This document shows positions 1-44,103 of a stretch of DNA of 64,000 nucleotides, piece by piece. Under the pieces are notes generated by a model, which saw only the letters and a list, made by a program, of their open reading frames with translations, was not told the DNA's origin and did no database searches. The position numbers were made by a program, and so were the translations under genes. Each line of letters begins with the position of its first letter. Positions within the stretch are counted from its first letter, which is position 1. Origin of the DNA: Rubrivirga sp. SAORIC476. Its GTDB lineage: Bacteria > Bacteroidota > Rhodothermia > Rhodothermales > Rubricoccaceae. Location: assembly GCF_002283555.1 (NCBI RefSeq), contig NZ_MVOI01000003.1:456536-520535 (forward strand), given 5' to 3'.

Positions 1-654
1 GAGCTGGTTGACGCCCGTCTCGATGCGCGAGACGGTGTGCGCCAGCGTCACGCCGTTGGTCTCCTGGAAGTCGCTGTAGATGGTGCGGCTGGTGATGGGC
101 CGCGCGAGCGAATCCGCCGTGACGACCTGCGAAATCTCGATCACGTCGAAGGCGTCGGCGTCGACGTAGACGCTGAACTCGATGGACGTCGTGGAGTCCT
201 GGTTGGTGGCGAGGCCGGGCTCGCCGAACAGGGAGCCAGGGTCGGAGGTCGTGAAGACGTAGGCGCGGCGTCCGTCGCGCGAGATCGGGCCGCGGAAGGC
301 TGCCGCGCGAAGGCCCCGCGCCAGGCGCGGCACGTTCGGGACCTGGTCGAACAGTAGCTGGGCGGCGGTGCGCGGCGTCACCCCGTCCTCGGCGGCAGCC
401 AGTTCGGGCGTGGCGAAGCGGTCGAGGCCAGTGGTGTCGCCGGAGGTCCGATACGTGGCCGTCGCGCCTGCGCCGGTGACCGTGAAGGTCTCCACCCCGC
501 CGAGGTTATTCTGGTAGCGGAGCAGCATCGCGTCGGCCACGTCGCTGCCGGAGGTGAGGTCGCCGGTGGGCAGGGCTGCCTCGCCGCCGCCGTCGCCACA
601 GGCGGCGACGAAGAGGAAGGCAGGGAGGAACGCGAGAAGAGCGAGGCGAGGCAT
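1..654 (-). CDS. Lipoprotein, LolA-like (C-terminus beyond left edge)
   Basis: Partial gene: the frame stays open to the left edge, giving 218 residues. The N-terminus is a lipoprotein signal with a hydrophobic stretch ending in V-A-A-C (Cys19), then a Gly-rich linker. The rest is beta-rich, with alternating hydrophobic residues and phrases such as YVDADAFDVIEIS, which recall periplasmic lipoprotein carrier/LolA-like folds. That family link is inference from pattern only. The ATG is the only start that places the lipobox correctly. The gene is divergent from the trmH-like gene, with a 70-base gap. Confidence 0.7.
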   Translation of the reverse strand, partial: MPRLALLAFLPAFLFVAACGDGGGEAALPTGDLTSGSDVADAMLLRYQNNLGGVETFTVTGAGATATYRTSGDTTGLDRFATPELAAAEDGVTPRTAAQLLFDQVPNVPRLARGLRAAAFRGPISRDGRRAYVFTTSDPGSLFGEPGLATNQDSTTSIEFSVYVDADAFDVIEISQVVTADSLARPITSRTIYSDFQETNGVTLAHTVSRIETGVNQL

Positions 655-27361: not shown

Positions 27362-29017
27362 ATGACCCAGTCTACTACGGAGAAAACGATGACATCACGT
27401 CTCTCAACTCTCCTCCTGTTGGGCGCGGCCTTCCTGATCGCTTCGGCGTCCCAGGCTCAGGTCATTCGCCCCAGCGAGTCCATTTACATCCTCCTCCGCG
27501 GCGGCGTCACCGGCTACTACGGTGACCTCGACGGCAACTCGGACGGCGACCCCGGCAGCGCCAACGCCAAGCTCAGCGACGGCTTCGACAACCCCGGCTA
27601 CAACGTCGGCGGCGAGATCGGCTACCTGTTCAACCCGAACCTCTCGTTCGGTGTCGGCTTCACGTACATGGACATCCCGAACCTCGACACGCGAGGCCAG
27701 GGTCCCACGGGTCGCGGACCGGGCGCGAATGACATCCTGTTCATTCCGGGTCCCAACGGGCCGATCCCCGTCACGAAGAACAACGGCAGCGCCGTGAACA
27801 TGGTCACGGGCCTGTTCCGCTACCTCCCGTTCGATGCGTCGCGCATCTCGCCGTTCGTCGAACTCGGCGGTGCCCTCGTCTTCGGCGTCGGCACGGACAA
27901 CGAGCGCAACGGCTCCGGCACGGATGCCGTGATCGGGTACGGTCCGGTCGCAGGCCTCGGCCTCGATGTGGCTCTGACGCCGCAGCTCGGCCTCTTCCTC
28001 GCCGCGCAGTCGACGGTCGTCTTCCCGGACGTCGCGCTTGACGGTGCGGATGCCGGCGCGTTCAACAGCCCCCGGTTCAACGGTGACGACGCGGACTTCG
28101 ACATCCTCGCCAACCTGGGCGGCGGCCTCCGTTTTGCCCTGCGCCCGCCGGTCAAGGCGGTTCGCGTGCTCGGCCTGGAGTGCCCGGCTGAGCTGCAGGT
28201 CGGCCAGAACGGTTCGTTCATGGCGATCACCAACCAGGACGCGACCCCGCCGGTCACCTCCAGCTGGCAGTTCGGTGACGGCGCCAGCGGCTCCGGCAGC
28301 TCCGCCTCGCACGCCTTCACCGCGCCGGGCACCTACACGGTGACCGCGATGGTGATGAACGACGGGGGCACGGACTCCGAGTCCTGCATCGTGACCGTCG
28401 TTCCGCGCCCGACGCCGCCGTCGCTCGCTGGCTGCCGCGCCACCCCGTCGCGCGTTGACGCTGGCCAGCAGGTCACGATCGACGCCACGGCAACCGAGGC
28501 AGACGAGATCACGGTCGACTTCGGTGATGGCACGACGGCGTCCTCGCTGCCGGCCCGCCACGCGTACGCCAACACGGGCTCGTACACGGTCACCATCACG
28601 GCGACCAACGAGTACGGCTCGGACACCTGCACGATCCCCGTCACGGTGGGCGACTCGTACTGCGCCGACATCACGGAGCTGAACCCGGTCTTCTTCGGGT
28701 ACGGCGCCACGACGCTCACGGCCGACGCGACCAGCCGTCTCGAGGAGAACATCGAGATCCTGCGCCGCTGCCCGGACATCTGCGTGACCATCAACGCCTA
28801 CTCGGACGGCTCCGAGCCGGGTGACGCGATGCGCATCTCGCAGGCCCGCGCCGACGCGGTGATGCAGTACTACGTCGGTCAGGGCATCGACGCCGAACGC
28901 CTCCGCGCCGTCGGCCGCGGTGTCGATCCGGACGCCAACTCGAAGGAGGATCCGGGCCCGGGCGACAGCCGCGCCCGCCGCGCCGACTCGATCCCGTCGT
29001 CCTGCGCCGGGTTCTAG
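27362..29017 (+). CDS. OmpA-family protein with beta-barrel and PKD domains (copy 1)
   Basis: 551 residues; ATG at 27389 is an equally good start and gives the signal MTSRLSTLLLLGAAFLIASA. N-terminal barrel (about 40-265), then two PKD-type Ig modules (SSWQFGDGASGSGSSASHAF; ITVDFGDGTTASSLPARHAY), then an OmpA_C peptidoglycan-binding domain (ELNPVFFGYGATTL, ISQARADAVMQYYVGQGI, RRADSIP). It would anchor the outer membrane to murein. Cys pairs in the PKD/OmpA region suggest disulphides. The downstream gene is a close duplicate. Confidence 0.88.
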   Translation: MTQSTTEKTMTSRLSTLLLLGAAFLIASASQAQVIRPSESIYILLRGGVTGYYGDLDGNSDGDPGSANAKLSDGFDNPGYNVGGEIGYLFNPNLSFGVGFTYMDIPNLDTRGQGPTGRGPGANDILFIPGPNGPIPVTKNNGSAVNMVTGLFRYLPFDASRISPFVELGGALVFGVGTDNERNGSGTDAVIGYGPVAGLGLDVALTPQLGLFLAAQSTVVFPDVALDGADAGAFNSPRFNGDDADFDILANLGGGLRFALRPPVKAVRVLGLECPAELQVGQNGSFMAITNQDATPPVTSSWQFGDGASGSGSSASHAFTAPGTYTVTAMVMNDGGTDSESCIVTVVPRPTPPSLAGCRATPSRVDAGQQVTIDATATEADEITVDFGDGTTASSLPARHAYANTGSYTVTITATNEYGSDTCTIPVTVGDSYCADITELNPVFFGYGATTLTADATSRLEENIEILRRCPDICVTINAYSDGSEPGDAMRISQARADAVMQYYVGQGIDAERLRAVGRGVDPDANSKEDPGPGDSRARRADSIPSSCAGF

Positions 29018-29056
29018 GTCGCGCGTGAGGGGCCCCGGCCCCACCTCGCCACCTCA

Positions 29057-29091
29057 GGGGCGGTCCGCAACGATGCGGGCCGCCCCTTTTT
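29057..29091 (+). terminator. Intrinsic terminator after OmpA-PKD copy 1
   Basis: GGGGCGG-T-CCGCA pairs with TGCGG-G-CCGCCCC around a 4-base loop, followed by TTTTT. An almost identical element follows copy 2. Confidence 0.9.
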
Positions 29092-29305
29092 CGTGCAGAG
29101 AGCGTGACGCTGACGAACAGATCGAACCCGACGGGATGACGAGCGTAGGCGCCTCTACATGCCGACCTCCCCCGGCGTGCTCCCGGGCTCTGCCCGCTCC
29201 TCCCTGACCTGCACTGCGTTTCCCGCACCCCTCCTGCGGGTCAGTTTCCTTCCCTCCCCACTGCTGCCGCCCCGGCCTCGTGTGGGTCCCCCCACCACCC
29301 CTCTT

Positions 29306-30868
29306 ATGTCCCGACTCTCCTCACTCCGCCTTCCTCACCTCCAAACGCTCCTGATCTGGGCCGTTGCGATGCTCATTGGCACCGCGGCACAGGCACAGAT
29401 CATCCGCCCGAGCGAGTCCATCTATGTGCTCCTGCGTGGGAGCGTCGCCGGGTACTACGGCGACCTGGATGGGGACCCCAACACGACGAGCATCAGCGAA
29501 GGGTTCGACGACCCCGGCTTCGGTGTCGGTGGTGAGGTCGGCTACCTCTTCAACGACAACCTCTCGCTTGGTGTGGGCCTGGTCTACCAGGACCTCCCGG
29601 CGCTCAACAACCGATCCACCAACATTCAGGGTGGTGAGGCCTATCAGTTCCAGGCGCTTCTCCGCTACCTGCCGTTCCCGGCGCTGAAGGTGTCTCCGTT
29701 CGTCGAGCTCGGCGGCGCTCTCGTCTCCGGACAGGGCACGGAGAACGAGCGCAACCTGCCCGGCACGGATGATGTCCTCGGCTTCGGCCCGGTCGTCGGC
29801 GCCGGTGTGGACGTGGCGCTGACCCCGCGCTTCGGTCTCTTCCTCGGCGCGCAGTCCACGTTCGTCTTCCCGGACGTCGCGCTCGACGGCACCGACCCCG
29901 GCGCATTCCCGGGCCAGCCCGGCGCGCAGGGTGACGACCATGACTTTGACATCCTCGCCAACGTCGGCGGTGGCTTCCGCTTCGCGTTCCGCGCGCCGGT
30001 GACGGCTGTGGAGATCCAGGGCCTGGAGTGCCCGGCCGAGCTCGAGACGGGTGAGACCGGCTCGTTCATGGTGATGACCAACGACGACGCCACGATGCCC
30101 GTCACCTCGACGTGGCAGTGGGGCGACGGTGCCGCTGGCTCCGGCATGACCACCTCGCACTCGTTCTCGGCCCCGGGCACCTACACGGTGACCTCGATGG
30201 TGATGAACGACGGGGGCACGGACTCCGAGTCCTGCCTCGTGACCGTCGTCGCGCCGCCGGTCCCGCCGCCGTCGCTCGCCGGTTGCCGCGCCACCCCGTC
30301 GTCGATCAACGCCGGCGACCAGGTGACGATCAACGCGACCGCCACCGGCGCCACGTCGCTCACGATCGACTTCGGTGACGGCACGACGGCGTCCTCGCTG
30401 CCGGCCCGCCACGCGTACGCCAACACGGGCTCGTACACGGTCACCATCACGGCGACCAACGAGTCGGGCACGGACACGTGCACGATCCCCGTCACGGTGG
30501 GCGACTCGTACTGCGCCAGCATCACGGAGCTCAACCCGGTCTTCTTCGGGTACGGTGCCACGACGCTCGCCGCCGAGGCCACGAGCCGTCTCGAGGAGAA
30601 CATCGAGATCCTGCGCCGCTGCCCGGACATCTGCGTGACCATCAACGCCTACTCGGACGGTGCCGAGCCGGGTGACGCGCTGCGCATCTCGCAGGCTCGC
30701 GCCGACGCGGTGCTGCAGTACTACGTCTCGCAGGGCATCAGCCGGGACCGTCTCCGCGCCATCGGCCGCGGCGTCGATCCGGCGGCGAACTCGAAGGAGG
30801 ATCCGGGCCCGGGCGACAGCCGCGCCCGCCGCGCCGACTCGATCCCGTCGTCCTGCGCCGGGTTCTAG
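29306..30868 (+). CDS. OmpA-family protein with beta-barrel and PKD domains (copy 2)
   Basis: 520 residues with signal around LIWAVAMLIGTAAQAQ. Same layout as the upstream copy: barrel (about 35-235), two PKD modules (STWQWGDGAAGSG; LTIDFGDGTTASSLPARHAY) and OmpA_C (ELNPVFFGYGATTLAAEATS). The start of the mature protein (RPSESIY, GYYGDLDG) and the whole C-terminal half are nearly identical to copy 1, including long DNA stretches, while barrel loops differ. ATG 29306 was chosen because the longer upstream frame has no signal at its start. Confidence 0.88.
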   Translation: MSRLSSLRLPHLQTLLIWAVAMLIGTAAQAQIIRPSESIYVLLRGSVAGYYGDLDGDPNTTSISEGFDDPGFGVGGEVGYLFNDNLSLGVGLVYQDLPALNNRSTNIQGGEAYQFQALLRYLPFPALKVSPFVELGGALVSGQGTENERNLPGTDDVLGFGPVVGAGVDVALTPRFGLFLGAQSTFVFPDVALDGTDPGAFPGQPGAQGDDHDFDILANVGGGFRFAFRAPVTAVEIQGLECPAELETGETGSFMVMTNDDATMPVTSTWQWGDGAAGSGMTTSHSFSAPGTYTVTSMVMNDGGTDSESCLVTVVAPPVPPPSLAGCRATPSSINAGDQVTINATATGATSLTIDFGDGTTASSLPARHAYANTGSYTVTITATNESGTDTCTIPVTVGDSYCASITELNPVFFGYGATTLAAEATSRLEENIEILRRCPDICVTINAYSDGAEPGDALRISQARADAVLQYYVSQGISRDRLRAIGRGVDPAANSKEDPGPGDSRARRADSIPSSCAGF

Positions 30869-32591: not shown

Positions 32592-33323
32592 ATGCGCCCT
32601 GTTCTCGCCGCGTGCCTGCTGCTCGTTCTCAGCGGCTGCTTCCAGTCCTCCTCCGTCCTGACGGTCCGCTCGGACGGGACCGCCACGTTGCGCGACGAGG
32701 TCACCCTCTCAGGGATGGCGCTGATGGCGATCGGCCAGTCCGACGATCCTGCGTTCAACGCCTCTGAGAGTGAAGCCCGCGCGGCTGCCATGGGGGGCGG
32801 CGCACGCCTCCGGTCCTTCGAAGCACGAGAGGACGGGTACACCGCGATCTACGACATCGACGACGTCGGGGGCCTCACGCTCGGACCGCCCGCCGGGTCC
32901 CCGGGCGAAGCCGAGGAGCTCTCTGTCTCGTTCGACTTCGATGCCGGCGACCCGGCAGTGCTGCGGATTCTGGTCCCCAAGCCCGCTCCATCGAAGTCCA
33001 CCTCGTCTGCCGAGTCCGAGGAGAACGGCGAAGACGAGATGGGCGCCCAGATGCTCGGGATGATGCGAAGCATGATCGGTGACGCCCGCCTCACGATGGC
33101 CGTCGAGGTGGAGGGCGAGGTCATCGACTCGAATGCGGCCGCGCGCGATGGAGGCCACGTCACGATCCTGGATCTCCCGTTCATGGCCATCCTCGACGCG
33201 ATGGAGGAGAACCCCGCGCTCGCCGAGAGTGCATCCAGCCCGGCGTCTCGGATGGCCGAGATGAATGCCATCGAGGGCGTCGTCATCTCCACGCCGGGCA
33301 CGACCCGCATCCGCTTCCGCTAG
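32592..33323 (+). CDS. Lipoprotein, first of a tandem pair
   Basis: 243 residues. Lipobox LSGC (Cys16) in MRPVLAACLLLVLSGCFQ. The body carries TVRSDGTATLRDEVTLSG near the N-terminus, a YTAIYDIDDV strand, an acidic Ser/Glu-rich loop (about 137-150) and a C-terminal GTTRIRFR. The next gene matches it along its whole length. The pattern of a mature N-terminus starting a 'V(R/H)xDGSATL' strand is common in Bacteroidota lipoproteins of unknown role. Confidence 0.72.
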   Translation: MRPVLAACLLLVLSGCFQSSSVLTVRSDGTATLRDEVTLSGMALMAIGQSDDPAFNASESEARAAAMGGGARLRSFEAREDGYTAIYDIDDVGGLTLGPPAGSPGEAEELSVSFDFDAGDPAVLRILVPKPAPSKSTSSAESEENGEDEMGAQMLGMMRSMIGDARLTMAVEVEGEVIDSNAAARDGGHVTILDLPFMAILDAMEENPALAESASSPASRMAEMNAIEGVVISTPGTTRIRFR

Positions 33324-33341
33324 CCCCTGGCCTTTCCCACC

Positions 33342-34091
33342 ATGCGTCTCGCCCTCCTCTTCGTCACCACGCTCGTCCTGAGCGGCTGCTTCCAGGTGAC
33401 CTCGCTGATCACCGTCCACGCCGACGGCTCGGCGACGCTCCGCGACCAGATCACGCTGTCCGGGTTCGGGCTGATGGCGCTCGCCGAGGCCGCCGAGGGT
33501 GGCGAGCCTCTTTTCGACGAGGCCACCATGGCCGCCCGGGCCGACAGCCTGGGCGAAGGCGTTCGCCTGCTGGCATTCGAGGAGCGCGAGGACGGCTACA
33601 CGGCGGTCTATGCCATCGACGACATCCGAACGTTCCGCTATGGATCGCCGGGCGCCGGCGACTCCGACTCGCCATCCGGCAACGCCAACGGCATCCCACT
33701 GGCGTTCGACTTCGAAGCGGGCGACCCAGCGGTCCTACGCGTGCTCGTGCCCAAGCCGCCTCCCGCAAAGTCAGAGGGTGAGGCCGAGGAGACCGACGCC
33801 GAGGCGGAAGCGATGGCGCTCGGCATGATGCGGAGCTTCGTCGGCGACGCGCGCGTCACGGTGTCGGTCGAGGTCGAGGGTGACATCGTCGACACGAACG
33901 CCACCGTGGTGGACGGCGCCCGCGTGACGCTCTACGATGTCCCCTTTCTCGCGGTGATCGACGCGATGGCCGGGAGCGAGTCCGGCATGCCCAGCGACCC
34001 GTCCAACTTCCCGGCCCTGTTGGAGCAGATCGGCGAGGTCGACGGCGTCCAGGTGCCGGCGCCGGGAACGATCCGAGTCCGCTTCCGCTAG
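33342..34091 (+). CDS. Lipoprotein, second of a tandem pair
   Basis: 249 residues, paralogous to the preceding gene: lipobox LSGC followed by FQ, VHADGSATLRDQITLSGFGL, REDGYTAVYAIDDI, FDFEAGDPAVLRVLVPKP, VEVEGDIVDTNA and the same ending, TIRVRFR. The separation of 18 bases implies one transcript. Divergence is greatest in the acidic loop. No function is known. Confidence 0.72.
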   Translation: MRLALLFVTTLVLSGCFQVTSLITVHADGSATLRDQITLSGFGLMALAEAAEGGEPLFDEATMAARADSLGEGVRLLAFEEREDGYTAVYAIDDIRTFRYGSPGAGDSDSPSGNANGIPLAFDFEAGDPAVLRVLVPKPPPAKSEGEAEETDAEAEAMALGMMRSFVGDARVTVSVEVEGDIVDTNATVVDGARVTLYDVPFLAVIDAMAGSESGMPSDPSNFPALLEQIGEVDGVQVPAPGTIRVRFR

Positions 34092-35945: not shown

Positions 35946-36418
35946 TCGAGAATCTCAGAGAGCACAGTGACGACATCCGCTCCGGCCCCGTCGCCCCGGT
36001 GCACGATCACCCCGTCCGGGTCGATCACGAACGAGGTCGGGTACCCCGTCACTCCGAACGCCTCCGTCACCGGTCGCCCGTCGCGGGTCGGCTCCACGAT
36101 CTGCGGCCACGTCAGTCCGTGCGCCTCGGTGAACGCGCGGACATCGTCGGCTGCGTCGAGCGCCACGCCGACGATCTCGAACCGGTCGCGCGGGTGGCGG
36201 GCGTAGAGCGCGGCGAGCCGAGGCGCGTCGGCGACGCACGGGCTGCACCACGTCCCCCAGAACTCGACCAGCACGTGCCGGTCGCGGAGGTCGCCGAGGC
36301 GGAGGGTGTCGCGGACGAGCGTCACCGCCTCAATGTCCGGCGCGAGGTCGCCCACGGCGGGCGCGTCCTGAGCGTGGGCCGCAGAGGCGAACAGAAGCAG
36401 GAGCAGCCAGCGCGTCAT
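35942..36418 (-). CDS. TlpA/ResA-type thioredoxin, periplasmic
   Basis: 158 residues. Signal MTRWLLLLLFASAAHAQ, then a thioredoxin fold with active site EFWGTWCSPC (WCxPC) and the cis-Pro loop VTGYPTSFVIDPDG. Such proteins reduce periplasmic disulphides, often for cytochrome c maturation. It overlaps both neighbours by 4 bases, so it is part of a three-gene operon with a small zinc-ribbon-like protein and KamA. Confidence 0.88.
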   Translation of the reverse strand: MTRWLLLLLFASAAHAQDAPAVGDLAPDIEAVTLVRDTLRLGDLRDRHVLVEFWGTWCSPCVADAPRLAALYARHPRDRFEIVGVALDAADDVRAFTEAHGLTWPQIVEPTRDGRPVTEAFGVTGYPTSFVIDPDGVIVHRGDGAGADVVTVLSEILE

Positions 36419-36651
36419 TCGTCGTCGGGCTTGCGGACGTACGGATAGCGACGGTACTGCTCCAGCACCTGCGAGTCGGTGGTGTCCTCGAAGGTCTCTC
36501 CGCAGACGGCGCACGAGAACACGATCCGCTTGGGCGTGCTCGACATGCCATTGAAGAGGGCGAACCAGCCACCGCCGCCGTGCGTCAGGTCGGCACGCGT
36601 GGCGTGGTGGTAGCGGTCGTGTCCGCAGGAGCAGGTCGGGCGGGGGTCCAT
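36415..36651 (-). CDS. Small metal-binding-like protein
   Basis: 78 residues with two candidate metal knuckles: TCSCGHDRYHHA (Cys/His-rich, residues 6-17) and FSCAVCGETF (CxxC, about 45-54), as in a zinc ribbon. It ends with a charged tail YRRYPYVRKPDDE. No family recognised. It is the first gene of the operon with TlpA and KamA, coupled by an ATGA overlap. Confidence 0.6.
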   Translation of the reverse strand: MDPRPTCSCGHDRYHHATRADLTHGGGGWFALFNGMSSTPKRIVFSCAVCGETFEDTTDSQVLEQYRRYPYVRKPDDE

Positions 36652-36708: not shown

Positions 36709-37698
36709 TCACCCCAGCGCCCGCCTCAGCGCCGCGCCCAACACGTCCGCGAGGAAGGCGTCGTAGGGCTGGCCGTCCAGTTCGGCGAGGATGGCGAACG
36801 TGCCGTCGGGCGCGAACGTCGGGAGCGGGTTGATCTCGATGAACACCGGCACCCCGTCGGCGCCGACGCGGAAGTCGGAGCGCGAGAAGTCTCGGCACTC
36901 CAGCGCGCGGTGCGCGAGAAGGGCCGCCTCGGCGAGCGCGCGGTCGAGGTCGGTCGAGAGGTCCCCCTCCACGACGAAGTCCGGGTCGCCTGGCAGCGCG
37001 TGGACGCCGATCCCGGACACCGGCTCGATGGCGCGTTGCAGCGGCGGCAGCGCCCGCGCCCCGGCGCCCGTCCCCACCACCCCGACCGTGAACTCAGAGC
37101 CGTCCACGAACGCCTCTACGACCACGTCCTGCCTGTACAGCGCGTGCTGACGGGCGGCCTCCGCCCGGAGCGCCTTCGTCGTCTCGCAGCGACTGGACCG
37201 AGTGATCCCCTTGGCGGTCCCCTCGTAGCGCGGCTTCACCATCAGCGGGAACGGAAGCCCGGCGGCCACCTCGGCCGCGTCCTGCCCGAGGCCGACCACC
37301 ACGCCCGTGGGCACGGCCCCGCCCGCTGCCGCGACGACGGTCTTGGTGAGGTGCTTGTCGAGCGAGACCGACAGCGCCAGCGCGTCGCTCCCGATGCACG
37401 GCACGCCCGCCAGCTCCAGAAGAACCGGCACGTGCGCCTCCCGGTTGCGGCTGCCGTAGCTCTCCGCGATCGTGAGGGCCGCGTCGAGGAGCAGCGCCCC
37501 CCCCCCTATCGCCGCGAGCAGCGCCTGCGCGTTGCCGATGCGAACGGGCATGTGGCCGAGCCGCTGGAGCGCCGCCTCCAGCGCGGCGACGGTCTCTTCG
37601 GGCTCATACTCGGCGTCCCAGTCGGGGGGCGCGCCGGGCGGGGCAGGCGCGTCGCCGAAGCGGTCGTAGCAGAGGCCCACCCGCAGCGAACGGCTCAT
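36709..37698 (-). CDS. D-alanine--D-alanine ligase-like ATP-grasp enzyme
   Basis: 329 residues. ATP-grasp order: N-terminal Rossmann (LRVGLCYDRFGD), GVPCIGSDALALSVSLDKHLTK, PLMVKPRYEGTAKGITRSS (ATP lid region), VEAFVDGSEFTVGVVG and the Mg-site EINPLPTF. The usual Ddl GRExxxxxL and Y/F-S catalytic triad context is only partly visible, and the central domain is short, so it may act on another dipeptide. It overlaps the upstream membrane-protein gene by 4 bases (ATGA). Confidence 0.78.
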   Translation of the reverse strand: MSRSLRVGLCYDRFGDAPAPPGAPPDWDAEYEPEETVAALEAALQRLGHMPVRIGNAQALLAAIGGGALLLDAALTIAESYGSRNREAHVPVLLELAGVPCIGSDALALSVSLDKHLTKTVVAAAGGAVPTGVVVGLGQDAAEVAAGLPFPLMVKPRYEGTAKGITRSSRCETTKALRAEAARQHALYRQDVVVEAFVDGSEFTVGVVGTGAGARALPPLQRAIEPVSGIGVHALPGDPDFVVEGDLSTDLDRALAEAALLAHRALECRDFSRSDFRVGADGVPVFIEINPLPTFAPDGTFAILAELDGQPYDAFLADVLGAALRRALG

Positions 37699-38525
37699 GG
37701 GGTCCGCCGCGGTCGCCACTCCGAGAAGCCGTCGGGCAGGAGAACGCCTCCGCGCCGCTCGGCCGTCGCTCGCGCGACCACCCGGTGCGCCCGCCGCAGA
37801 TTCTCCGGGGCGATACGGGCCGGGCGCGCGTCGACCAGTCCTTCGACCTCCTCGGCTGTGAGCCACTCCGCCAGCCCGATGTTCTGGGGCAGGATTGCCC
37901 GGGTCGGCTCTGGCTCATCGTCGACCTCCAGCGTCTCCGCCCAGAGTGCTTCCGTCGGAGCGGCAGCGGGCTCCTCCGAGGCATCGACCCGGAGCACGCG
38001 TCGGATCCGCCAGCGCGTCGCCCCCAGTCGGATCCACTCGGCGGCGCGGACGAGCACGGCTACCCCCACGGGCAGGCCCACGAGTGCCAGCGGGGCCAGC
38101 CACTCGGCGGCCGCCGAGGGCCTCGACAACAGGACGACCGCCGTCACCACCGCCGTCGGCAGGCAGAGCCAGGCCAGCGCGACGACCCAGGGGCGCGGCG
38201 GCGACCACGCGACCGTGACGGTGAGGATGGCCTCGTCGGGGCGCTCCTCGGCGTGCAGCAGCACGCGCCGCCGGGCAGTGAGGAGACTCCAGAGACGGCC
38301 CGACGCCGTGTCCTCGTGGAGACCGCGGGACCCGAAGACGCGCTCCGCCTCCGCCACCGCCGCCGTCCACCGGGCCGTGTCGACCCCGGACAGGCGGGCC
38401 GCCCACTGACCCACGCGCGGAGCCCGCCGCCCCCCGGGACGTACCGTCGGAATGGGAGGCTCGGGGACCTCACGCCAGCCAGCGCCTTCGGCGAGAGAGT
38501 CGGGAGTCGGGAACGGCACCGGCAC
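37695..38525 (-). CDS. Hypothetical membrane protein
   Basis: 276 residues. Two adjacent TM helices (WVVALAWLCLPTAVVTAVVL; WLAPLALVGLPVGVAVLVRA) in the middle, a helical N-terminal cytoplasmic domain ending ARRRVLLHAEE, and an acidic C-terminal region (LRVDASEEPAAAPTEALWAE, ILPQNIGLAEWLTAEEVEGL). No motif recognised. It lies between the five-gene paralogue array and the Ddl-like gene on the same strand. Confidence 0.6.
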   Translation of the reverse strand: MPVPFPTPDSLAEGAGWREVPEPPIPTVRPGGRRAPRVGQWAARLSGVDTARWTAAVAEAERVFGSRGLHEDTASGRLWSLLTARRRVLLHAEERPDEAILTVTVAWSPPRPWVVALAWLCLPTAVVTAVVLLSRPSAAAEWLAPLALVGLPVGVAVLVRAAEWIRLGATRWRIRRVLRVDASEEPAAAPTEALWAETLEVDDEPEPTRAILPQNIGLAEWLTAEEVEGLVDARPARIAPENLRRAHRVVARATAERRGGVLLPDGFSEWRPRRTP

Positions 38526-38567: not shown

Positions 38568-39422
38568 TCATCCCCGGATGCGTTGGCGCGCAACGCCCGT
38601 CTCTTCTGTCGCGGGGAGGTCATCGTCTAGAGCGTCGAGGTCGAGGCGACCGCGCGGCGCGGCGGCCTCCCCGACCGGCTCCACGTCTCGGGCCTGGGAT
38701 CCGTGGAGGAGCGGCGTGAGGTCGTCGGCCAGCGTGCCGAGGTCGGCGTGCTTGCGGGCGCGCCAGCGACGGTCTGCAGCGGCGACGAGCGGAGCCGCGA
38801 CGGCCCAGGCGACCAGAAACGTCACCACCCCGATCACGGCGCCCATCGACCCGGCGCCCGACGCCTCCCCCCCGATGCCCCCGGCCACCATGGCTAGAAG
38901 CAGCGCGATCGCAGCCCCGTAGAACAGGCCCTCGACGGTCGGGCTGGAGAGGCCCACGAGTTGGGTGATGCGGAGCCGCGTCCGGTCGCCCCGCGGGCTC
39001 ACCACGACGCGCGTTCGCACGCCCAGCGAGTTGGTGTGCGACCACTCGAACGACCGGCCGACCTGCTGGACCGACTCGCCGGCGGTTTCCCCGAAGGGGG
39101 CGCCCATCGGGGCGCCGAAGGTCATGCGGAGATGCGAGACGGCATCTTCCCAGCCGTCGAGCGCGAAGGGTGTGTCGAGCCATCGCTCGACGTAGACCTC
39201 GGTGCGCGTCTGGCCGGACTGCCGAGCGAGCGTCCGCCCGAGGTCGTCCACCTCGGCGGCGGCGGCGCGGAGGTGGGCCGGGTCGATGCCCGCCTCGCGC
39301 CCGATGCGCTCGATCTCGTCGAGCGTCAGCCCCGCCTCGCCGACCCCCGCCTCGACGGCGCGCTGCCGCTCGACGGCGCGCTCGATGATGGAGGCGACTT
39401 CTGCTTCGGAGTACGTGCGCAT
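38568..39422 (-). CDS. Tandem paralogue array, member 5 (unknown membrane family)
   Basis: 284 residues. N-terminal helical module SEAEVASIIERAVERQRAV then LTLDEIERIGREAGIDPAHL (about 1-52), a beta-rich middle (EVYVERWLDTPFALDGWEDA, RVVVSPRGDRTRLRI), two TM helices (about 165-215) and a C-terminal cytoplasmic tail with RLDLDALDDDL. The same plan is found in the four genes upstream. It is last in transcription order and the most diverged in its tail. Confidence 0.7.
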   Translation of the reverse strand: MRTYSEAEVASIIERAVERQRAVEAGVGEAGLTLDEIERIGREAGIDPAHLRAAAAEVDDLGRTLARQSGQTRTEVYVERWLDTPFALDGWEDAVSHLRMTFGAPMGAPFGETAGESVQQVGRSFEWSHTNSLGVRTRVVVSPRGDRTRLRITQLVGLSSPTVEGLFYGAAIALLLAMVAGGIGGEASGAGSMGAVIGVVTFLVAWAVAAPLVAAADRRWRARKHADLGTLADDLTPLLHGSQARDVEPVGEAAAPRGRLDLDALDDDLPATEETGVARQRIRG

Positions 39423-39425
39423 CGG

Positions 39426-40205
39426 CTAGGAGCGGGTGCGAGAGCGGGAGGAGACCGGATCGGACGACTCGTCCAGGTCGGGGAGCGCGTCGAGATCCAG
39501 GCGTGGCGAGGCCTCCCGCTGGTGCGCGTCCGGAAGGGGCGTCTCTACCGCCTCGGCGGCGCGACGGGCGACATCGGCGAACTGCTCCTCCCGGAGGGTC
39601 GCCCACCGCCGCTGCTCGGCGCCCAGGCCGAGGGCCCCCAGCAGCATCCCCAGGCCCAGCAGCAGCACGCTCCACATGTCGCCGCCGTCTGCCAGCAGGT
39701 CGATGGAACCGACGATCGCGGAGAGGAGCGCAAACACGCCGACGACGCCCGCGCCGATCGACATCTGGGCGCGCTCCTGACGCCGCGTTTGGAGGGACAG
39801 ACGGCTCGCATCGGCTCCCTCGGCCTCGAGCGTCACGCGGAGGTTGCCGTTGCGCCATTCTCGGGCGCGCCCGGTGTCGGAGACCTTGCCGCGGGCGGAG
39901 AACGTCCGGCGCGCGTCCGCGACGACGTGGTCCCAAAGCACCTCCGCGGGAGGGCCGGGCAGGACCTCCGTCCGAAACACACCACTCGGCAACGGCCCGA
40001 GTCCCGTCCGCCCCGTCTCGGGCTCGCCCGTGGCGACGGCGCGGGCGGCGGCCTCGACGTGCTCGGGGTCCAGCCCCGCCTCGCGGCCGATGGCGCGGAG
40101 TTCGTCGAGCGAGAGCCCCTCGCCCTTGGACCGGACCGCGTGCTGCCGCTCGGCGGCGCGCGCGAACACCTCACGGGCTTCGTCTTCGGTGAACTGGTGG
40201 TCCAT
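39426..40205 (-). CDS. Tandem paralogue array, member 4 (unknown membrane family)
   Basis: 259 residues. FTEDEAREVFARAAERQHAV, LSLDELRAIGREAGLDPEHV, a middle domain with FRTEVLPGPPAEVLWDHVV and GRAREWRNGNLRVTLE, two TM helices (MSIGAGVVGVFALLSAIVGS; MWSVLLLGLGMLLGALGLGA), and a tail ending RLDLDALPDLDE. It is separated by 3 bases from member 5 and abuts member 3. Confidence 0.7.
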   Translation of the reverse strand: MDHQFTEDEAREVFARAAERQHAVRSKGEGLSLDELRAIGREAGLDPEHVEAAARAVATGEPETGRTGLGPLPSGVFRTEVLPGPPAEVLWDHVVADARRTFSARGKVSDTGRAREWRNGNLRVTLEAEGADASRLSLQTRRQERAQMSIGAGVVGVFALLSAIVGSIDLLADGGDMWSVLLLGLGMLLGALGLGAEQRRWATLREEQFADVARRAAEAVETPLPDAHQREASPRLDLDALPDLDESSDPVSSRSRTRS

Positions 40206-40988
40206 CTAGGTGCGGGTCCGGGAACGAGGCTGCGGGGCCACCTCCCCCAGCTCAGGCGCGACGTCGAGGTGGAGGGGATCGAGGCGCGCTCCGGGCGCCT
40301 CGTCAGGGAGGGACGGTGCTGCAGACGCGGCGATCCGTTCGATCCGATCAGCGAGAGCGTCCATCTCCAGGGGACGGGTCATGGCGCGGCGGCGCGCGCT
40401 GACGCGCGTGACGAGGAGGACCGCGACCGTCATCACGGCCATTGCCAGCGCGAACCAGAGCAGTCCCGTCTTGCCCGTCGCAGCTCCCCCCACACCCATC
40501 AGCGCCCCGAGCGAGACCATCATGCCGGACAACCCATAGGCGGCGCCCTTCTCTGAGGCCACCCCGGACTCGACGGTTAGCTCCGTCCCTTCAGGCGTCG
40601 TCTCGATGCGGACGCGCTCGCCCTGGAGGCTGCCCTCGTAGGCCGTCCACGAGCGGCGGTCGCCGATGTGCTCCACGGCACCCGGCGTCTGGTGGCGCTC
40701 CCGGAGGACATCCAGGACACGTCCCCACGCCGCATCGTCCACCGGACCGACCAGACGGCGGACGCGCTGCGTGCGCAGCGGCACGCCTGCCCACATCGGC
40801 GGCTGATAGGGAGTCGCATCCTCGGCCGCCGCCGCCGCCACGTGCGCCGGGTCGATGCCCGCCTCCCGCCCGATGGCCTGCAGGTCCTCCAGCGTGAGCC
40901 CCTCGCCCAGCGCCGGCCTGCGGTGCTGACGCTCGGCGGCGCGGGCGAAGATGCGCTTGGCCTCCTCCTCGGAGAAGTGGCGCGCCAT
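40206..40988 (-). CDS. Tandem paralogue array, member 3 (unknown membrane family)
   Basis: 260 residues. FSEEEAKRIFARAAERQHRR, LTLEDLQAIGREAGIDPAHV, then VPLRTQRVRRLVGPVDDAAW, a beta segment (ERVRIETTPEGTELTVE), two TM helices (about 160-205) and the tail RLDPLHLDVAPELGE. It shares one base with the stop of member 2 (TGATG), so translation is coupled. Confidence 0.7.
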   Translation of the reverse strand: MARHFSEEEAKRIFARAAERQHRRPALGEGLTLEDLQAIGREAGIDPAHVAAAAAEDATPYQPPMWAGVPLRTQRVRRLVGPVDDAAWGRVLDVLRERHQTPGAVEHIGDRRSWTAYEGSLQGERVRIETTPEGTELTVESGVASEKGAAYGLSGMMVSLGALMGVGGAATGKTGLLWFALAMAVMTVAVLLVTRVSARRRAMTRPLEMDALADRIERIAASAAPSLPDEAPGARLDPLHLDVAPELGEVAPQPRSRTRT

Positions 40989-41791
40989 CAGGACCGGGTG
41001 CGGGGCCGGTGTGCCGATGCCCTCTCCGCCTCGTCCTCCTCGATGTCGAGGTGGACCGGGTCGATGCGCGGGGCGGTAGTCTCGCGCGTCGCGCGCACGA
41101 ACGGGCCCGGCGTTGCGTCGCGCGCGATCAGGTCCAGACGGTCCAGCAGCGACTCGAACCGTCGCGCCTCGCGCCGCCGCCACACGCGCGTCCCGATCTG
41201 AGCGCCAGCCCCGAACATCACCCCCATTCCCGCCATGATGACGGCCGGGACCCACAGCTCGGGGTCGGCGCCCGCCAGCCAGAGGGTGAGGAAGAGAAGC
41301 GCCATGGCGCCCTGGACCGCAGCGGCGATGGTGAACCCGAAGACCGTGTCACGGATCGAGCGCGAGAGCGTGACGCGCGACCCGTCGCCCGCGGGCTCCA
41401 GCGTCAGGCGCGTCGTGATGCCGTTCTTGGTGCCGCCGCTGATGACGGTCCACTCGCGGAGGCGCCCGATCTGGCCCGCCATGCCCGGCTGGCCGAACTC
41501 GCGGCGCGCGGCCGTGACCATCGACGCCCACGCGTCGTCGTCGACGGGGCCGTCGAACACGCGCGAGCGGACCACCTCGATGGGCGTGCCGAGGAGCGTC
41601 TTCTCGGCCTGCGGCGCCGAGTCCAGTTCCGCTGCGGCGATGGCGACGAGGCCGGGGTCCAGGCCTGCCGCCTGCGCGGCCTCCTCCAGTTCGGAGAGCG
41701 AGAGCCCATCGGCTCCGGAGGTCATCCGCTGGCGGTCGGCGACGAGGGCGAAGATGCGCTGGGCCTCCTCTTCGGAATAGCGACGGGGCAT
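40988..41791 (-). CDS. Tandem paralogue array, member 2 (unknown membrane family)
   Basis: 267 residues. YSEEEAQRIFALVADRQRMT, LSLSELEEAAQAAGLDPGLV, TPIEVVRSRVFDGPVDDDAW, GRLREWTVISGGTKNGITTR, two TM helices (TIAAAVQGAMALLFLTLWLA; LWVPAVIMAGMGVMFGAGAQ), tail RIDPVHLDIEEDE. The DDDAW segment aligns with the DDAAW of member 3 and the SDAEW of member 1, which shows that the middle domain is homologous too. Confidence 0.7.
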   Translation of the reverse strand: MPRRYSEEEAQRIFALVADRQRMTSGADGLSLSELEEAAQAAGLDPGLVAIAAAELDSAPQAEKTLLGTPIEVVRSRVFDGPVDDDAWASMVTAARREFGQPGMAGQIGRLREWTVISGGTKNGITTRLTLEPAGDGSRVTLSRSIRDTVFGFTIAAAVQGAMALLFLTLWLAGADPELWVPAVIMAGMGVMFGAGAQIGTRVWRRREARRFESLLDRLDLIARDATPGPFVRATRETTAPRIDPVHLDIEEDEAERASAHRPRTRS

Positions 41792-41793
41792 GG

Positions 41794-42585
41794 TCAGGCG
41801 CGGATGCGCGAGCGAGAGGGGACGGTGCCCCGGTCCTCGACCTCGGCGTCGAGGTGGGCGGGGTCGATGCGGCCCTCTGTGGCGGTCGGAAGCGAGACGT
41901 CGTCCAGGCGAGAGATCAGGTCGATGCGGTCGAGGAGGCCTTCCAGTCGGTCGGGGGTCCGCGCAGCGGCGAGCTTCGCGGACAGGAACGCGCCCGCGTA
42001 GCAGACGATGCCGACCAGCATCATGAGAACCGCCACCATCAGCGAGGTCGTTTTCTCAGGTACCACCGCTGCCAGCCCTGCACCTGTCAGCGCGCCCATG
42101 CCCGCAAACGTCCCGCCCAGCGCTAGGCCGAGGAGGCGGTTCACGTCGGGCGCCTCGATGGTCACGAGGTCGCCTTCGGGACGATCCTCGACCCGCACGC
42201 GGAGGGACGACGACGAACTGGACGAGGAGCCGGAGTGCCCGGTCCACTCGCGGCGTCTCCCGATCTGCTCCGCCGTCCCCGGCGTCTTGCACTCGGCCCG
42301 GAGCAGGTCCACGACGCGCTCCCACTCGGCGTCCGAGAGGCGAGCCGGGAGCAGACGGGAGCGGCGGATCCCGACGGGGACGCCGTGCCACGTCGCCTGA
42401 GCCTGCTGCGCCGCCCGCTCCGACGCGGCCTCGGCGGCGACGAGCGCAGGGTCGAGCCCGGCCTCCTTCCCGATGGCAGTCAGCTCGGCGACCGTCAGGC
42501 CGTCGGTGGCGGACGCGGCGTGCTGGCGGCGCGCGGCGCGGGCGAAGATGCGGCGGGCCTCGTCGGCGGAAAAGCGGTCGGACAT
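41794..42585 (-). CDS. Tandem paralogue array, member 1 (unknown membrane family)
   Basis: 263 residues, first gene of the array. FSADEARRIFARAARRQHAA, LTVAELTAIGKEAGLDPALV, VPVGIRRSRLLPARLSDAEW, GRRREWTGHSG followed by a poly-Ser run, two TM helices (GLALGGTFAGMGALTGAGLA; LMVAVLMMLVGIVCYAGAFL), tail RIDPAHLDAEVED. No enzyme motif. The N-terminal module could be a small helical interaction domain. Function of the family unknown. Confidence 0.7.
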   Translation of the reverse strand: MSDRFSADEARRIFARAARRQHAASATDGLTVAELTAIGKEAGLDPALVAAEAASERAAQQAQATWHGVPVGIRRSRLLPARLSDAEWERVVDLLRAECKTPGTAEQIGRRREWTGHSGSSSSSSSSLRVRVEDRPEGDLVTIEAPDVNRLLGLALGGTFAGMGALTGAGLAAVVPEKTTSLMVAVLMMLVGIVCYAGAFLSAKLAAARTPDRLEGLLDRIDLISRLDDVSLPTATEGRIDPAHLDAEVEDRGTVPSRSRIRA

Positions 42586-42892: not shown

Positions 42893-43666
42893 TCACCGCA
42901 CGTACGACGCCGCGTTCACGTCCACCGTCGTGCCCGTCGCGTGGTCGGCGAGGCCGGAGGCCAGGAAGACGACCGTCGGGGCGACGTCGTCTGGCTCGGT
43001 GAGGCGGTCGAGGGCCGCGCCTCGCAGCGCCGCTGCCTCGCCGTGCTGGGCGATGTAGGGCGTCGCCATGTCCGTGCGCGTGAAGCCCGGTGCGACTCCG
43101 AACGCTACCAGCCCTCCCCCCGCCCGCGCCAACGTCTTCGTCAGCGCCACGACCCCGCCCTTGGAGGCTGCGTAGGCGAGGTACTCGGGGTCGTCGCCAC
43201 GGAAGGCAGCCCGGCTGGAGACGGTCACGAGGCGGACCGAGACGCCGCTCTCCCCCGCCGCTCTCCGCTCGGTCGCGTGCCGAGACGCCGCGCGCCCGAG
43301 TTCGGCTACCGAGCGCAGGTTGACGGCCATTGTCCGATCCCAGGCGGCGAGCCAGTCGTCGAGGGGCGCGTCCAGCGGGGCCTCCTCGAACGTCCCGGCG
43401 TTGGCGATCACCACGTCCACGCGCCCGTAGACCGCCTTTACCGCCTCGAACAGTGCGTCGGCAGCGCCGGGCGCGGCGAGGTCGGCGCCGAAGGCACGGC
43501 TGCCGTTCCGTAGGTCCGCGGCCAGCGTCCCCGCAGCCTCCGCGTTGCGTCCGTAGTGGACGCCGACGGTCGCCCCGGCGGTGCCGAGCCGAACAGCGAT
43601 GGCCCGCCCGATCCCCCGGCTCGCTCCCGTCACGAGCGCGACCCGGCCTTCCAGATCGAGGGTCAC
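42893..43666 (-). CDS. Short-chain dehydrogenase/reductase (SDR)
   Basis: 257 residues, GTG start. Classical SDR: TGASRGIG cofactor motif (14-21), VIANAG (NAG), catalytic Ser in VTVSSRAAF and Y-x-x-x-K in YLAYAASKGG. The C-terminal DVNAASYV ending resembles FabG-like reductases. The Arg in the TGxxRGIG loop hints at NADPH. The natural substrate cannot be told. GTGA overlap with the upstream lipocalin-like gene. Confidence 0.9.
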   Translation of the reverse strand: MTLDLEGRVALVTGASRGIGRAIAVRLGTAGATVGVHYGRNAEAAGTLAADLRNGSRAFGADLAAPGAADALFEAVKAVYGRVDVVIANAGTFEEAPLDAPLDDWLAAWDRTMAVNLRSVAELGRAASRHATERRAAGESGVSVRLVTVSSRAAFRGDDPEYLAYAASKGGVVALTKTLARAGGGLVAFGVAPGFTRTDMATPYIAQHGEAAALRGAALDRLTEPDDVAPTVVFLASGLADHATGTTVDVNAASYVR

Positions 43667-44103
43667 GACCGCGTCCGCACGAGACGCACCACGAGACCGT
43701 CGACGGTGGCCATCTCCAGACGGCCGTCCTCCAGAATCTGGTAGCGGACCGGCTCGTCGCCTTCGACCATGATGCGCCCATCCTCCGTGTCATACGGGAA
43801 CGTGCGCTCCATGCTCATCGGGTCGAGGTCCTGCACCATTTCCATCTCGACGGTCGCCGTCCCTTCCGCGCTGAAGGCACACGTCATGGCCTCGACCGCG
43901 ACGCCCAGATCCCCGAGGCGGCCGGCCTCGGCGACCTCCTCCAGCGTCCACTCGCCGACGAGGTCGGCATCGAGCGTGTCGGGCACGGTCACGTCTGTCA
44001 CCGGCGGCGCGACGGGCTCCGGGAGCGGCGCGGGCTCGGCGTCGGACTGGGCGAAGACCGGACCGGCCAGCACGGCGACGGCGGTGAGGGCGAAGAGGCG
44101 CAT
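43663..44103 (-). CDS. Secreted lipocalin-like protein (short)
   Basis: 146 residues. Signal MRLFALTAVAVLAGPVFAQ. After a Pro-rich linker comes LVGEWTLEEV, the first strand pattern of lipocalin-like/DUF4488-type barrels (G-x-W), and a single-sheet remainder ending VDGLVVRLVRTR. A paralogue-like protein with the same G-x-W start is encoded immediately upstream. Ligand unknown. Confidence 0.65.
   Translation of the reverse strand: MRLFALTAVAVLAGPVFAQSDAEPAPLPEPVAPPVTDVTVPDTLDADLVGEWTLEEVAEAGRLGDLGVAVEAMTCAFSAEGTATVEMEMVQDLDPMSMERTFPYDTEDGRIMVEGDEPVRYQILEDGRLEMATVDGLVVRLVRTRS

Follow-up and report, generated by a model that had tools for sequence, protein, structure and literature searches.

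A tandem array of five membrane proteins from an unnamed, multi-phylum family with a predicted helix-grip fold

Here, we describe a family of bacterial membrane proteins represented by five consecutive genes in Rubrivirga sp. SAORIC476, which lie in a 64,000-nucleotide stretch of its genome, hereafter called the window. The family is real, unnamed and found in several phyla. Each array protein consists of a small helical N-terminal module (N-module), a beta-rich middle domain, a hairpin of two transmembrane (TM) helices and a tail; the middle domain, together with the helix that follows the second TM segment (TM2), probably adopts a helix-grip (SRPBCC/START-like) fold, judging by predicted structures. 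The family, its paralogy, spread and conservation and the predicted fold were all obtained by computation.

The array, its paralogues and its neighbours

A first-pass annotation of the window had described five consecutive minus-strand genes separated by gaps or overlaps of 0–3 bases. The open reading frames are indeed present on that strand, from 42585 down to 38568 (Table 1). Read from the sequence, the junctions comprise a 2-nt gap between E and D, a 1-nt overlap in which the start of C overlaps the stop of D (TGATG), a 0-nt gap between C and B and a 3-nt gap between B and A (+2, -1, 0 and +3 nt). This tight packing suggests that the array genes are co-expressed. A promoter scan gave no promoter-like site and a terminator scan gave a single site, no more than in shuffled sequences; both scans are uninformative at this GC content.

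Table 1. Array genes and adjacent genes in the window
Feature	Position	Strand	Remarks
Short-chain dehydrogenase (SDR)	42893..43666	-	Upstream neighbour; beside the array in related genera
Copy E	41794..42585	-	263 aa; family member; orthologues in genomes G003 and G001
Copy D	40988..41791	-	267 aa; family member; modelled, pLDDT 88
Copy C	40206..40988	-	260 aa; nearest the E clade; without clear genus orthologue
Copy B	39426..40205	-	259 aa; family member
Copy A	38568..39422	-	284 aa; A-type subfamily
Probable sixth, degenerate paralogue	37695..38525	-	Middle domain with Trp motifs and hydrophobic pair; without N-module
D-Ala-D-Ala-ligase-like ATP-grasp	36709..37698	-	Downstream neighbour; beside family members in two families of the order

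The proteins were proposed to be clearly diverged paralogues, which agrees with the pairwise identity of 29–34% between copies B–E and copy A when the five are aligned. The strongest similarity lies in the proposed common N-module, which we confirmed in all five copies: leave-one-out profiles score 60–94 bits, whereas about 500 shuffled versions reach 11 at most. The five copies share the middle domain as well (28–73 bits, with top scores of 8–13 among some 500 shuffles of that segment), so the similarity extends well beyond the N-module. For the TM hairpin the scores are 11–38 against at most 14 in shuffles, with copy B not above its own shuffles, and for the tail 14–26 against at most 17, with copy A not above its own. 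By this measure, the TM part and the tail are common to most copies rather than all, and the assignment of two TM helices to each copy stands.

Two proposed motifs needed revision. In the D-[DA]-x-W motif of the middle domain only the Trp is invariant, the other positions varying among the copies (LDGW in A, EVLW in B, DAAW in C, DDAW in D and DAEW in E). The tail, described as acidic, does carry R-[IL]-D-x-x-[HA]-L-[DP] in all five copies, but beyond it the C-terminus is basic, with R-x-R-x-R; R-x-R is found at the C-terminus of 53 of 65 relatives.

The open reading frame directly downstream of the array is probably a sixth, degenerate copy. With the whole-family profile it scores 21.9 bits (E 4e-6). 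Of about 500 genes, it is the highest-ranking one outside the family when searched with the middle-domain profile; the score is only 12.5 bits, however, and a second gene reaches 12.0. Its alignment with the middle domain follows the pattern V-D-x-x-x-W ... G ... W ... R-V, and no orthologue was detectable in the 11 related genomes searched. A 923-aa membrane protein of the same genome (G000:C3:625917) was rejected as a member; its similarity is confined to the TM segments. Elsewhere in the window, two more adjacent-gene pairs cluster by similarity, at 27362-30868 (551 and 520 aa) and 32592-34091 (243 and 249 aa), on the plus strand.

Synteny is kept, as had been claimed: the array sits between the SDR gene and the D-Ala-D-Ala-ligase-like gene here and in related genera, and in another bacterial family of the order the members adjoin the ligase-like gene there too. 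In the loci of another family, the neighbours include IMP dehydrogenase, glycosyltransferase, M23 and bactofilin genes, among others. We looked for conserved partner genes and discarded the candidates: neighbours are kept within lineages only and differ between them, and we therefore name no partner. Two small conserved neighbours without a Pfam match, at window positions 36415-36651 (78 aa) and 43663-44103 (146 aa), both on the minus strand, recur in related loci.

Distribution and history of the family

Within the same order, 39 of the 60 genomes encode the family, with up to seven members each and a single copy in some. A sample of 198 genomes from the phylum gave matches at E <= 1e-4 in 41, almost all of which belong to the same class. 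Gemmatimonadota and Myxococcota yielded further loci, and the family thus spans at least three phyla.

In the tree, copies A, B, D and E each cluster with their genus orthologues; the A, B and E groups are starred for support, and the D group (83) falls inside a starred group of four. The A-type and the B/D/E-types are separated by the drawn (midpoint) root, and since other families of the order are found on both sides of it, at least the duplications that separated them are old. Copy C, placed with the E clade, lacks an orthologue in the genus; genomes G003 and G001 carry a different copy instead (L044 8997, L045 83). Between close orthologues of these two genomes dN/dS is 0.11–0.31, and between the window copies and their relatives it is 0.27–0.60. 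Such ratios indicate that the genus orthologues of A, B, D and E are under purifying selection. That each copy may have its own role, as suggested, would fit this selection and the old duplications.

In another family of the class, three full-length relatives (L094:3014-3853, L095:3060-3917 and L096:2742-3557) have a nearly unrecognisable N-module, which shows that the module can decay while the rest of the protein stays. A distant relative of 323 aa (L093:1169-2137, plus strand) is extended by a long stretch at its N-terminus, and its middle-domain loops are longer.

Predicted fold and searches against known families

The first-pass annotation knew of no named family with this plan. Our searches bear this out: no characterised family is matched with confidence, and Pfam and NCBIfam have no model for the present one. 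None of the window proteins reaches the cut-off of a Pfam or NCBIfam model, and no family in either resource is widely matched by the 65 relatives. The sole meaningful family lead is PF10604 (Polyketide_cyc2), which matches copy D below threshold (E 2.6e-4); such matches occur in only 3 of the 65 members, the best at 21.7 bits against a curated cut-off of 27.4. PF13239 (2TM) is matched neither by the window proteins nor among the families listed for the 65 members. N-module-only relatives in other bacteria do match PF13239, with the module standing in front of the 2TM domain.

A PDB sequence search with the family profile was set aside; it returned nothing but noise from TM segments and helices (best E 0.028). 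The viral structure library gave no match at E under 0.001, and literature searches turned up no paper on the tandem membrane-protein family. An N-module resemblance in DsbA-like thioredoxins (L088:938-1708, L091:704-1924) was also rejected, as it lies within a helical insertion and is probably a convergent helical hairpin.

Copy D was modelled with AlphaFold2 from 65 sequences (mean pLDDT 88), and copy A from a separate, shallower alignment (pLDDT 68). The copy D model begins with the helical N-module (helices 7-24, 32-41 and 46-57), continues with a beta-alpha-beta4 domain (strand 72-79, helix 85-99, strands 104-108, 111-118, 125-134 and 137-145) and ends with the TM hairpin, whose second helix runs on into the cytoplasm (TM1 as helix 147-172, TM2 and its extension as helix 177-226). 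Foldseek matches to this model are mostly SRPBCC/START-like proteins (CalU16, TTHA0849, COXG, polyketide cyclases), and BamC is also among them. With VIA-align, copy D matched 105 chains at Z >= 8, including PYL10 (Z 9.9, 111 aligned residues, rmsd 3.9), ZhuI (Z 9.4) and Rv2186c (Z 9.3, 108/116 residues, rmsd 3.1). For copy A the matches, over a range of about 70..245, include TTHA0849 (Z 8.6, 116/145, rmsd 3.0) and At1g24000 (Z 8.6, 106/120, rmsd 2.9). The best scores, 9.9 for copy D and 9.0 for copy A, should be read with care, as a Z of 9-10 is only moderately above the 7-8 that is this tool's typical best for models without a clear match. For these predicted models, agreement on the fold class is the stronger argument. 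The helix-grip layout (an N-terminal strand and helix, an antiparallel sheet and a C-terminal helix) is found in both AlphaFold2 predictions.

The structural alignments of copy D fall within residues 69..231 and cover 91-133 residues, whereas only 78 residues precede the hairpin. Part of each alignment must therefore come from beyond the last strand, and the end points shown lie in the TM2 extension. In the model this extension takes the place of the C-terminal grip helix, and the TM hairpin therefore appears to be inserted within the fold. If right, this split topology would be an unusual way to seat a lipid-binding type of fold directly on the membrane, and it would also explain the weak polyketide-cyclase matches of some members.

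We do not claim membership of the SRPBCC superfamily, because profile comparison (hhalign) with genuine SRPBCC proteins of related genomes did not confirm it, aligning only a beta hairpin (18-22 columns, probability 12-36%). BamC, Flpp3 and spermine-synthase domains match the models about equally well. The domain before the hairpin has five strands and one helix, against the usual larger SRPBCC layout, and this reduction makes a real pocket uncertain.

A possible inner-leaflet role and its relation to known systems

The 25 residues after TM2 contain 5.2 K+R on average, against 0.3 in the short hairpin loop, a charge bias that favours an N-in/C-in topology. We infer from these features a working model of topology, ligand binding, signalling and division of labour. 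The array products would be inner-membrane proteins whose N- and C-termini are both cytoplasmic, each with its small helical N-module, a cytoplasmic helix-grip domain (beta1-alpha1-beta2 to beta5) into which the TM hairpin is inserted, the cytoplasmic continuation of TM2 as the C-terminal helix of the grip, and a flexible acidic tail with R-x-R-x-R at its end. The grip pocket would sit directly against the inner leaflet and might there bind a membrane-derived hydrophobic ligand, such as a lipid, an isoprenoid or a pigment precursor. Its occupancy could alter the recruitment of partners by the N-module and tail, and the paralogues may differ in ligand or partner. We put this forward tentatively; taken as a whole, a ligand-binding grip domain with N-module and tail as output and specialised paralogues falls somewhat short of an even chance.

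The main rival is a scaffold that binds no ligand, in which the grip domain would be a protein-interaction surface, the N-module SHOCT-like and the paralogues the parts of hetero-oligomeric inner-membrane platforms. The match of the reduced five-strand domain to BamC and Flpp3, which are lipoprotein grip domains, speaks for it, as do the suggested co-expression and the recurrence of the N-module pattern (helix, G-L-T-x-x-E-L, helix) on PF13239 2TM proteins. Bi-helical SHOCT-like domains have, moreover, been proposed to anchor intracellular globular domains at the inner leaflet (PMC11237479). However, a Pfam search at E up to 10 finds neither DUF1707 nor SHOCT in the N-module, no single partner gene accompanies the family in all lineages, and some genomes have only one copy. 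We regard the scaffold as a credible possibility on which we would not stake much.

It is improbable that the array encodes membrane-state sensors of an envelope-stress module like the phage-shock or Lia systems: the layout, with a cytoplasmic domain, a TM hairpin and a helical module, is broadly similar, paralogue arrays and a resemblance to ideas in PMC11237479 add to this, but no PspA, PspC, Toastrack or LiaF gene and no regulatory partner was recognised beside the array or among annotated neighbours. Holin-like or pore-forming small membrane proteins are very improbable: weak Phage_holin_3_6 matches do recur in 6 of the 65 members (best E 0.0021), but those of the window copies (16.4 and 11.7 bits against a curated cut-off of 28.4) cover the hydrophobic hairpin only, the cytoplasmic domains are better conserved than the hairpin, and no phage context was seen.

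Extending the ligand-binding reading to a widespread membrane-integral START-like family, with the hairpin inside the grip fold, the pocket on the inner leaflet and arrays specialised for different membrane-derived ligands, seems to us rather unlikely in full. If right, the split topology would offer a concrete, testable starting point, in topology and bound lipids, for genes that are common in Rhodothermota-related bacteria and yet are named by no current family model in Pfam or NCBIfam.

Among known systems, the closest in fold is the SRPBCC/START/Bet v 1-like superfamily (PF10604, Rv2186c, TTHA0849, the PYL receptors), with which the array proteins share the predicted beta-alpha-beta4-alpha topology, VIA Z scores of 8-10 over about 90-130 residues in two paralogues and a Trp on the first helix. 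They differ from it in the TM hairpin before the C-terminal helix, in having fewer strands and an added N-module, and in their lack of a significant profile-profile match or a Pfam score above cut-off. By analogy only, the eukaryotic Lam/Ysp2/GRAMD1 proteins likewise hold a StART-like domain at the membrane by TM segments (PMC4463742), but in these proteins, which act at membrane contact sites, the TM anchor is a distinct element next to GRAM domains. SHOCT-like and DUF1707 modules (PMC11237479) are, again by analogy only, small helical modules fused to membrane-associated cytoplasmic domains, whereas the array N-module has three predicted helices and no Pfam match. Some 2TM domain proteins (L043, L089, L090) carry a similar N-module, but their membrane domain, PF13239, does not match the array family, and they showed no grip domain. 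The N-terminal domain of BamC and Flpp3 are helix-grip domains of similarly small size, without a TM hairpin in their fold; both are lipoproteins located outside the cytoplasm. As predicted, the unnamed family combines an already known fold with an unusual insertion topology.
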